This document shows, in pieces, positions 18,044 to 20,886 of a stretch of 20,886 nt of DNA. Location of the stretch: positions 1 to 20,886 of IMG/VR virus record IMGVR_UViG_3300039036_000041; one strand, given 5' to 3'. Source of the DNA: a virus. Positions within the stretch are counted from its first letter, which is position 1; each line of letters opens with the position of its first letter. A model generated the notes under the pieces. The model made no database searches, was not told where the DNA came from, and worked only from the letters and a program-made list of their open reading frames with translations. The position numbers and the translations under genes were made by a program.

Positions 18044-18430
18044 TTAATTTTTAGCCCACCCCCATTCTCCTGTCATACCTCCAGCACTATAATCAGCTAC
18101 TCGTTGTTCAAAGAAGTTAGTTACGTTGTCTGCTGAGATAACCCAGTCTAACCACGGTAATGGATTCTCTTTGATACCATAGTTACCTTTCAACCCCAGT
18201 TGGATTAGTCTACGGTCAGCAATGTATCTAATGTACTGCTTTACTTCAGCTTTCGAGAGACCCTCCACATCACCCATTTGATATGCAAGGTCAACAAAAG
18301 TATCTTCAAGTTTGACAGCGTCTCTAAACATTTGGTATATATCTGCTTTAAGTTCATCTGTTACTACCCTTGGGTGTTCATCTAAAAATGTATGGAATAA
18401 CTTAATCATTCCCTCTACGTGTAAGCTCTC
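18044..18430 (-). CDS. nrdB: Ribonucleotide reductase small subunit, exon 2
   Basis: The 3' exon of the split nrdB encodes 128 residues (192-319 of the spliced protein). It opens with ESLHVEG, which holds the last two iron ligands of class I R2 proteins (E192 and H195; E238 and H241 in E. coli NrdB). It continues with the typical YIRYIADRRLIQLGLKG helix and ends near GEWGWAKN, short of the long R2 tail of E. coli. The first internal ATG is at 18409, but translation from there would lose the E-x-x-H motif, so this is an exon and not a separate gene. The stop lies next to the bidirectional terminator. Confidence 0.93.
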   Translation of the reverse strand, partial: ESLHVEGMIKLFHTFLDEHPRVVTDELKADIYQMFRDAVKLEDTFVDLAYQMGDVEGLSKAEVKQYIRYIADRRLIQLGLKGNYGIKENPLPWLDWVISADNVTNFFEQRVADYSAGGMTGEWGWAKN

Positions 18431-19248
18431 CGTGTGTTCATAGCAAGCCGCAACACTCGCTACCGTTCTCTTATGAACTGCTTATGTTTTCACACAAGTC
18501 CAGACTATATCTTCACCTATACGGTGTTATACGCTTCGAGTACCTTTAGCTTGTACTCTACTCCCTGACGGGATAGTCGTTGCACTTTCAAGACCTAACT
18601 CTTTCCAAGCATATCCCCATCTTTTTCTGTGACGAATAAGAGAAACATATCTTGGGTGTATACCGTACTTGTCGCCTGCTTCTTTGTTAGACATACCCTC
18701 ACGGAGTTCTAAAATTAACTCTTTGACGGTCTCTAAGTCTAACTTTCTTTCAGACAGTTTAGTGTTCTTAACAGGGGAGTTATACGTCTGTTTATCATGA
18801 TACCTGTGCGTGTTCTCTTCTGAGGTAACTTGCTCTAGGTTCTTAACGTGGTTATGTAGTTTATTACCATCAATATGGTCTATGTGCATACCTTTATGAA
18901 TAGTACCAACAAAAGTCTCATACACTAATCTATGAGCTGTTATTTGTTCGTGCCCTTCTTCATTGTATAAAGTATAGCAGTAGTAACCAATACCTTTCTT
19001 TAGTATCGGTTTTAAAACCTTCCCTGTTAAGTTGTTAATCACTTTCCCTGTTACGGTAATGTTGTAGTTAGTATAGGTTGGATGCGTCTTTTGCATTTCT
19101 CAATTCCTTATCTTGCTTAGCTCAGTATTAATATGCAAGTAGCTTTCTTTAGCTTTCTTGTTTAATCTTCACTGAATTCATATAATTATCTCTAATCAGT
19201 TTCCTGTTAAGAGGGACAAAAAGTCGTTATAAATCAACAACTTAGACT
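18431..19248 (-). ncRNA. Group I (IA-type) self-splicing intron in nrdB
   Basis: The 818-nt intron is read leftwards. The R element AACGACTATCC (18571-18581) and S element AAGATATAGTC (18503-18513) form P7 (GACUA/UAGUC). Between them lie P7.1 (CCC-gtca-GGG, 18563-18572), P7.2 (GAGTAC/GTACTC, 18538-18558) and P8 (CACC-gtata-GGTG, 18514-18526). Downstream are P9 (CTTGTG/CATAAG), a GTTC/GAAC hairpin and a TAGCGAG/CTTGCTA stem. The intron ends GAACACACG, like the T4 td intron's GAACATAATG. The 5' exon ends in U (GGAT) and the intron in G, as group I splicing needs. A possible guide CTTTTTGTCC (19214-19223) pairs GGAU as P1 and GAGAG of exon 2 as P10; this part is tentative. Confidence 0.93.
18527..19096 (-). 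CDS. Intron-encoded HNH homing endonuclease
   Basis: A 189-aa protein inside the nrdB intron, similar in layout to the phage enzyme I-HmuI (174 aa). It has a NUMOD4-like N-terminus (GKVINNLTGKVLKP, residues 17-30) and an HNH core with HRLV (H55), HIDHIDGNKLHN (H71 to N82) and NLEQVT (N86-T91). A helix-turn-helix DNA-binding region lies at about 135-160 (SNKEAGDKYGIHPRYVSL). AAGGA lies 9 bases before the ATG. It would nick intronless nrdB alleles and so spread the intron. The last about 19 codons coincide with the P7 5' strand, P7.1 and P7.2 of the ribozyme and stop just before P8, so the C-terminal peptide (ATTIPSGSR onward) is dictated by RNA structure. Confidence 0.93.
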   Translation of the reverse strand: MQKTHPTYTNYNITVTGKVINNLTGKVLKPILKKGIGYYCYTLYNEEGHEQITAHRLVYETFVGTIHKGMHIDHIDGNKLHNHVKNLEQVTSEENTHRYHDKQTYNSPVKNTKLSERKLDLETVKELILELREGMSNKEAGDKYGIHPRYVSLIRHRKRWGYAWKELGLESATTIPSGSRVQAKGTRSV

Positions 19249-19821
19249 ATCCTTAATGCTCCATTCGTTAATCTTACTTAGCCCCATCAGCTTACCTTTG
19301 CGTTGGAAGTTAAGTAGCATAACAAAAGCACCAAACAAGCTAACACCTTCTGATAATACTGTTCGTGCAATAGACCTAGCAATACCTCTATGGGACTTCA
19401 TATCCATATCAGTCATTGACTCAATCTTTTCGGCTAAGTCTTCATAGTCTAGGAAGGCTCTGAAAGAATCATCAGGTAATCCGATAGTGTCTGTGAACAA
19501 AGCATAGGAGCGTTGGTGGATACCTTCTCTAGCTGCAATAGACAATAGCATCTGTCTAATCTCATTGTTCTTAAATGTAGGTAAGAAGTGGTCGATGTAA
19601 CCACTAGCTACCTCAGCATCAGACTGTGTGAAGGTCTTCATAATCTCAATGACTAAGCTCTTCTCTTCTGGTGTAATAGTACCATCATTCCATTGACGCA
19701 TATCTTCTGTTAGGTCAATCTCTTGTTCTACCCAGTGCATCTTCTCGGAAGTCTCTGCAAGCTGTACTGCCCAAGCAAAAGTGAAAGGTTTGTAAGTTTT
19801 GTTTCTTTCTAGTAAGCTCAT
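19249..19821 (-). CDS. nrdB: Ribonucleotide reductase small subunit, exon 1
   Basis: The 5' exon encodes residues 1-191 of the di-iron R2 subunit, which generates the tyrosyl radical that NrdA uses to make deoxynucleotides. The iron ligands D68 (FTQSDAE), E99 and H102 (REGIH) and E158 (LSEGV) are present, as is the radical Tyr Y106 (HQRSY). The exon ends WSIKD at 19249; reading on into the intron adds only SLSC and a stop. Joined to exon 2 the protein is 319 aa and regains the KDESLH motif. AAGGAG precedes the ATG, and the groES stop TAA overlaps that ribosome site, so groES and nrdB are probably co-transcribed. Confidence 0.95.
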
Positions 19822-19830
19822 AGTTTCTCC

Positions 19831-20091
19831 TTAGTATTCGTACTTAGCAAAGACACTATCTTCACTGAGGATGAGAAGTTTCTTACCCGCCTCTGTTACA
19901 GGTAACGCCCTAGACCAGTCTACAGCAATCTTATCACCAATAGCTAAGTCTCCTGTTACGTTAACCCCCAGGGATACAACTACGGCTGCCTTAACGCCAA
20001 CCTCTGCAACCCCTTGTAGGATAATACCACTTTCTGTTTTATTCTCTACTTCAACTTCTGTTACTACAATATTATTCTTTAATGCTTTCAT
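19831..20091 (-). CDS. groES: Phage GroES-like co-chaperonin
   Basis: An 86-aa protein of the Cpn10 fold. It has an N-terminal strand MKALKNNIVVTEV, a mobile loop at about residues 15-27 (ENKTESGIILQG; the GIIL unit is the part that docks on GroEL), and the second-half motif GDLAIGDKIAVDW. It is slightly shorter than bacterial GroES (about 97 aa). No GroEL gene is in the window, so it would work with host GroEL, as T4 gp31 does, probably to fold the capsid protein. AAAGGAAAAAT precedes the ATG. It sits between nrdA and nrdB. Confidence 0.9.
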   Translation of the reverse strand: MKALKNNIVVTEVEVENKTESGIILQGVAEVGVKAAVVVSLGVNVTGDLAIGDKIAVDWSRALPVTEAGKKLLILSEDSVFAKYEY

Positions 20092-20190: not shown

Positions 20191-20226
20191 CTAACCTTGA
20201 CATGCGAGACATTCTCCATCATAGTC
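20191..20226 (-). pseudogene. Displaced second nrdA C-terminal tail
   Basis: Read on the minus strand this encodes DYDGECLACQG and a TAG stop. It repeats the C-terminal peptide of the nrdA gene upstream (DFEECLACQG and TAA at 20418). Five of the seven shared ECLACQG codons differ, all silently (for example TTG/CTC and GCT/GCA), so it is not a recent copy. It has no start or ribosome site of its own, and the frame is closed by a stop within the repeats. It is probably the remnant of an older nrdA 3' end. Confidence 0.7.
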
Positions 20227-20256
20227 CTTGAGGCCACAATTTGTGACCACATAATT

Positions 20257-20379
20257 AGTTAATATATAAACTATATGTACATATTTTAATGTTTTATAGT
20301 TAATATATAAACTGTATGTACATATTTTAATGTTTTATAGTTAATATATAAACTGTATGTACATATTTTAATGTTTTAT
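20257..20379. repeat. Three 41-bp AT-rich tandem repeats
   Basis: Copies start at 20257, 20298 and 20339. Copies 2 and 3 are identical and copy 1 differs by one base. Each has about 15% G+C and contains the perfect palindrome TATGTACATA plus a near-palindrome AGTTAATATATAAACT. The 41-bp period is about four helical turns, so each palindrome faces the same side of the DNA. An iteron-like protein-binding array, replication origin or regulatory site are the options; nothing here decides between them. Confidence 0.9.
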
Positions 20380-20392
20380 AAACATATAGTTG

Positions 20393-20408
20393 CAATATGT
20401 CGATATTG
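20393..20408 (-). promoter_or_regulatory. Short hairpin after nrdA
   Basis: CAATAT and ATATTG form a 6-bp stem around a 4-base loop, 9 bases after the nrdA stop. The stem is AT-rich and no T-run follows on the minus strand, so it is a poor terminator. It could be an RNA-processing or stability element. Confidence 0.35.
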
Positions 20409-20417
20409 TGCTTCGAT

Positions 20418-20886
20418 TTACCCTTGGCAAGCCAAACACTCTTCAAAGTCTACTAAAGCCTTACGTTCTACCTTAGTGCTAACAGACTCGGCTGACTTCT
20501 CACCTTCGGTACGTAGATAGTATAAACCTTTCAGTCCCTTACTCCACGCCTGGTAGTGAACCGCATTAACATAGGCCTTGTCTGCCCCAGCACCAAAGAA
20601 AAGGTTAACTGACTGTCCTTGACAGATATACTTCTGTCTGTCAGCAGCGTGTTCAACGACCCAACGCTGGTCAATATCGAAGGCAGTCTTAAAGACATCC
20701 TTTTCGTAATCGTTGAGGAACGGTAAGTGTTGTACTGAGCCTTTAGCCGCAACAATCGAATTCCATGTCTCTTCATCATTCTTACCTAAGCCTTCCAGAA
20801 CTCCTTCCAAGTATCTGTTCTTAATAAGATGAGACCCAACACGAGTACGATGTACGTAAGCGTTAGATTTAATAGGCTCAATAGAA
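20418..20886 (-). CDS. nrdA: Ribonucleotide reductase large subunit, 3' part
   Basis: The C-terminal about 155 residues of class I NrdA, open to the edge of the window. Family landmarks are NAYVHRTRVGS, an RYLEGVLEGLG helix, AADRQKYICQGQSVNLF (the family's 'Q-S-x-N' segment) and KGLYYLRTEGE, which holds the Tyr-Tyr pair of the radical-transfer path. After a linker rich in Lys, Glu and Ser, the protein ends ECLACQG; this C-x-x-C tail normally passes reducing equivalents from thioredoxin or glutaredoxin to the active site. The frame continues upstream of the TTG at 20810, so that codon is not a start. The inferred direction of transcription is nrdA, groES, nrdB. Confidence 0.95.
   Translation of the reverse strand, partial: SIEPIKSNAYVHRTRVGSHLIKNRYLEGVLEGLGKNDEETWNSIVAAKGSVQHLPFLNDYEKDVFKTAFDIDQRWVVEHAADRQKYICQGQSVNLFFGAGADKAYVNAVHYQAWSKGLKGLYYLRTEGEKSAESVSTKVERKALVDFEECLACQG

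Follow-up and report, generated by a model that had tools for sequence, protein, structure and literature searches.

The 20,886-base stretch of DNA analysed here, a metagenomic contig held as a virus record in IMG/VR and referred to below as the window, carries two readable versions of the C-terminal end of nrdA in tandem, and the second of these (tail 2) is probably the scar of a recombination event in the gap between nrdA and nrdB, in which the DNA of two related phages was joined illegitimately over short homology. As a recombination scar it is ordinary in kind and unusually clear in detail: both CxxC versions of the NrdA tail can still be read, which makes this gene-end exchange unusually legible, and a related viral contig (L085/L098) places one side of the junction with single-base precision. 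A scar of this type would show how the nrdA-nrdB gap can acquire a gene such as groES. The nearest named phages in the terminase-portal region are the Methylophilales phages MEP401/402, at 64-65% DNA identity, while the best matches to the nrd region are oyster-associated Zobellviridae phages. The features of the locus are collected in Table 1.

Table 1. Features of the nrd region of the window, in the order in which they are read on the minus strand.
Feature	Position	Strand	Evidence or remark
nrdA 3' part, ribonucleotide reductase large subunit	20418..20885	-	ORF; Pfam Ribonuc_red_lgC, E=1.2e-27
Spacer between both tails	20233..20417	-	no RNA family match
Three AT-rich direct repeats, 41-bp period	20256..20380	-	palindrome-adjacent copy common to L085/L098
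Palindrome GTGGTCACAAATTGTGGCC	20232-20250	-	one base off the perfect form; adjoins the junction; absent from the preliminary description
Junction word CTCAAGGA	20225..20232	-	ends the match to the nrdB leader of L085 and opens tail 2 (Leu-Lys-Asp)
Tail 2, LKDYDGECLACQG-TAG	20232-20191	-	CTC AAG GAC TAT GAT GGA GAA TGT CTC GCA TGT CAA GGT TAG
groES-like gene (Cpn10)	19831..20091	-	Pfam Cpn10, E=8e-10
nrdB, two exons flanking a group I-like intron	18053..19821	-	tblastn exons 19821-19249 and 18430-18053
nrdB intron	about 18431-19248	-	Intron_gpI, 26 bits, below gathering score

The C-terminal CxxC of class I reductases acts as the redox pair by which the active site is reduced again, and the nrdA of the window retains this motif in a complete C-terminal end. 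The gene extends past the window edge, has 71% identity with its best viral relative and terminates in ALVDFEECLACQG-TAA (tail 1; stop at 20420-20418, minus strand), an end that includes an unusual Val and is otherwise typical of the NrdA ends of relatives. Another instance of an altered NrdA tail is found in the proteins encoded at L073:4001-4700 and L106 (phage C48C1):2501-3217, which match that of the window to residue 146 only and continue from there into a far longer C-terminal stretch, ending in DECRACEG in L073.

The second nrdA-like tail on the same strand, recorded in the preliminary description of this sequence, was recovered as a perfect 8/8 match to ECLACQG plus stop. When the 326-nt spacer was resampled 4,000 times with a first-order model, the best match reached 4/8, and no further site in the window matched at 6/8 or better. 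As had been stated, the tails use different codons at five of the seven ECLACQG positions, each a silent change. The similarity ahead of this motif is also real, with D-F-E in tail 1 corresponding to D-Y-D in tail 2, but tail 2 holds an extra residue (Gly); similarly, the second copy does lie downstream, but at 203 nt from the TAA to its Glu codon rather than the roughly 190 first given. Aligned as DNA, the tails are identical at 28 of 44 positions (~64%) and the differences in their common part are mostly silent, which together rule out a recent duplication. Tandem duplication of the gene end was likewise rejected, given this level of identity and the fact that each tail is closer to some relative. 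This degree of identity, combined with exclusively silent changes in ECLACQG, is what would be expected of alleles separated under selection, and the tail 2 sequence falls within the range of relatives' NrdA ends. Most simply, tail 2 would be what is left of the 3' end of another nrdA allele, lying upstream of groES. DNA identity failed to assign the tails to lineages (0.73 for tail 2 and 0.72 for tail 1 to L086; 0.79 and 0.80, respectively, to L227), as 42 nt is too short for this purpose.

The origin of the junction is indicated by comparison with L085/L098, whose first 74 bp match window positions 20298-20225 at 72 of 74 bases. The matched segment comprises one copy of the 41-bp repeat, the palindrome and CTCAAGGA. 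In L085/L098 the repeat and palindrome constitute the leader of nrdB, ending CTCAAGGAG-ATTAG-ATG, with neither tail 2 nor groES. Beyond CTCAAGGA, L085 reads G-ATTAG-ATG into nrdB and the window reads C-TAT-GAT-GGA into tail 2, such that homology breaks abruptly at this word, exactly at the start of tail 2 (CTC AAG GAC), a break seen in this one relative, whose contig begins inside the repeat. The same CTCAAGGA thus serves as part of the ribosome-binding region of nrdB in L085 and as Leu-Lys-Asp codons in tail 2.

These observations are best explained by the following series of events. One parent, of the L085 type, would have carried the 41-bp repeat and palindrome followed by CTCAAGGAG and nrdB. 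The other would have carried an nrdA with last codons CTC AAG GAC and onward, ending in LKDYDGECLACQG-stop with CTCAAGGAC, probably with groES and nrdB next. Joining of the two within the common word CTCAAGGA, about 8 bp, would yield the observed order of complete nrdA with tail 1, spacer, tail-2 remnant, groES and nrdB. The short-homology mechanism is our inference from one parent and from the codons that tail 2 reads as. A donor of tail 2 was not found among the relatives, and this second parent, like the presumed non-functionality of tail 2, is deduced from the sequence.

To place this arrangement among related phages, we examined 166 relatives, from viral contigs and phage records, in which the end of nrdA could be read, scanning 3 kb downstream of each. 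All 166 have a single tail and none has a second, and none has groES in the nrdA-nrdB gap. The arrangement that the preliminary description had set against its own reading, both tails present in all relatives, was therefore not seen, and its central proposal, that two homologous tails grew apart while selected at the protein level and were then joined by recombination, is supported both by this count and by an L085/L098 spacer that lacks tail 2. The NrdA ends of the relatives vary (LKDAEECISCHG, LKDFDGDECVSCQG, LKDYDECIACQG, LKDFEEECLACQG and others), and the gap varies from an overlap of 10 bp to a length of 2.8 kb, with differing genes inside it, in keeping with a modular region. HNH endonuclease genes occupy it in KZY1 and in a group of contigs around L053, and a thymidylate-synthase-like protein, identified by eye, in L014. 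The closest NrdB proteins are those of L085/L098 (88%) and L086 (86% identity over exon 1), L085 and L086 being the only hits of the NrdB alignment scan in viral contigs, with none in genome contigs. In L086, nrdA ends in LKDFDDGGCLACQG-TAA, followed by a spacer of ~250 bp without repeats and then nrdB, with no groES.

The groES of the window, situated between nrdA and nrdB, is diverged. A tblastn search of 50,697 phage records (E 1e-5) returned no relative, and the viral contigs held only two, both distant (39% and 27%). The adjacent nrdB is uninterrupted in L085 and L086 and in the window is interrupted after codon 191 by the intron, which carries an HNH endonuclease gene (18527-19096; HNH_3).

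Which block is the newcomer is a separate question. As the repeat and palindrome form the nrdB leader in L085/L098, the extra block would be tail 2 plus groES, and on the basis of the L085 gene order we slightly favour this assignment over one in which the nrdA 3' end and spacer are new. The preliminary description had envisaged the 41-bp repeats arriving with a new 3' end, and on this point the L085/L098 leader suggests the opposite direction. A reversed history, in which an incoming nrdA 3' end (tail 1) with the repeats and palindrome displaced a resident tail 2 already positioned before groES, is nonetheless a tenable, if tentative, reading. It uses the same junction, fits a hypothetical nrdA-groES-nrdB phage as reference and gains from the high similarity of the 74-bp block to L085, from which it differs at 2 of 74 positions compared with ~19% in nrdB exon 1 (~81% identity; P about 6e-5), indicating that the block was either exchanged recently or is strongly conserved. 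Set against this are the L085 arrangement, in which repeat and palindrome immediately precede nrdB and both tail 2 and groES are missing, and the gene order nrdA-groES, which was found in no phage; nor did any relative run from tail 2 straight into groES, as relatives using the second tail directly had been expected to do. An identity dip at nrdB codons 9-18, considered as a right-hand breakpoint, was not significant (P=0.13).

The spacer itself was analyzed for signs of other origins. Its three near-identical repeat copies measure 43 nt each. An exact 34-mer of the repeat had zero matches in other viral contigs, a degenerate 39-mer matched only L085/L098 among viral contigs, and the spacer as a whole had no similar record among phages and plasmids. 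Each repeat contains a weak minus-strand match of the sigma-70 type, with 10 such matches found in the region against 2.3 expected, and it is possible that the 41-bp repeats are tandem promoters or binding sites. The 41-bp repeat corresponds to approximately four helical turns, and the sigma-70-like hexamers lie on the nrdA-groES strand.

A decayed mobile insert, in which an element such as a homing endonuclease had entered the 3' end of nrdA, delivered a replacement tail and then lost its gene, with the repeats, palindrome and old tail staying behind, would be in keeping with the HNH genes found in this gap in relatives, with the HNH-bearing intron in nrdB of the same phage and with the homing endonuclease mobE, which in T4-like phages resides between nrdA and nrdB (PMC2988022). 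We regard such an insert as unlikely, however, since the spacer contains no endonuclease remnant or other ORF of at least 40 aa with a standard start on the nrdA strand, a permissive cmscan search against Rfam detected no intron or RNA family within it (the only intron being that of nrdB), and the spacer is already accounted for as an L085-type nrdB leader. Assembly error is a further concern for a metagenomic contig with near-identical repeats, at which two coexisting phage genomes could have been mis-joined. The homology break, however, falls at CTCAAGGA, past the palindrome and outside the repeats, and even after a mis-join within the repeats one real genome would have tail 2 following a repeat and palindrome, making an artefact improbable.

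Whether tail 2 could be expressed was assessed from its own features. Its frame is intact, with the CxxC, its own stop and an in-frame GTG 19 codons before that stop, and on these grounds it could be viewed as a functional short peptide or alternative C-terminus. No Shine-Dalgarno is apparent before the GTG, which sits at the base of a hairpin, making translation unlikely; together with the lack of an intron match and the failure of any relative to keep such a second tail, this renders a functional role most improbable. As judged from the sequence, tail 2 is most likely untranslated and probably silent.

The palindrome at the junction leads to a different set of relationships. In L085/L098 it occurs in the perfect form GTGGTCACAAATTGTGACC (L098:49-67), and as RNA it would fold into a hairpin of about -10 kcal/mol. 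The motif GTGGTCACAAATTGTG[AG]CC is present in 12 viral contigs, in about seven unrelated contexts, and TGGTCACAAATTGTGACCA in at least 113 stretches of bacterial genomes from many phyla, where an estimated ~1 would be expected by chance. Among the matches listed, a single protein family, identified as ORF6N (PF10543) in the genomes tested, is represented near the palindrome at 64 of 91 loci. The palindrome lies inside a frame, reading WSQIVTTS or VVTNCDHL by frame and strand, in 50 of 80 genome loci among the matches listed when a simple filter is applied, an upper count for in-gene placement because some of these frames are antisense. We then considered 67 ORF6N loci (L303-L369) chosen by profile rather than by motif, from the phyla of the palindrome-bearing genomes. 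A palindrome with at least 8 of 9 arm pairs was found in the domain region of 48 of the 67, compared with 42 of 268 background windows (Fisher P about 3e-18), and mostly in one place. The arms vary yet remain complementary, and the palindrome occurs in more than one reading frame, a pattern that suggests that the DNA or RNA of this part of the ORF6N coding sequence is under selection in its own right; it is perhaps a candidate operator for the ORF6N protein.

A conserved palindrome within ORF6N coding sequence, for which we found no report in the published literature, could matter more than the nrdA scar. We found no ORF6N gene in the window or in ten palindrome-bearing viral records. Extending these observations to the nrd locus, where an ORF6N-type protein of the phage or its host would recognise the palindrome, which as a site would control the nrd genes or direct the exchange of gene ends between phages, is a long shot, and draws on the location of the breakpoint at the palindrome edge and on the equivalence of the perfect form to the ORF6N palindrome.

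Recombination in the nrdA-nrdB gap, as favoured here for tail 2, has clear counterparts in known systems. Phage mosaic junctions formed by illegitimate or short-homology recombination similarly display an abrupt break in homology at a gene boundary and the remains of a gene end next to a gene that has newly arrived. Unlike such junctions in general, the window retains working and displaced tails that are both readable, and the common word belongs to a ribosome-binding region in one parent and would be coding sequence in the other. The free-standing homing endonucleases of the T4 mobE type occupy the same nrdA/nrdB gap, marking it as a hot spot of gene gain (PMC2988022), whereas the window spacer consists of repeats and a palindrome with no nuclease gene or remnant, and the extra gene is groES. 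In Aeromonas phage Aeh1, insertion of mobE split nrdA (PMC2988022), likewise an event that altered the nrdA coding arrangement; in contrast to Aeh1, the nrdA end in the window is complete and the second tail is an extra remnant rather than a needed fragment.
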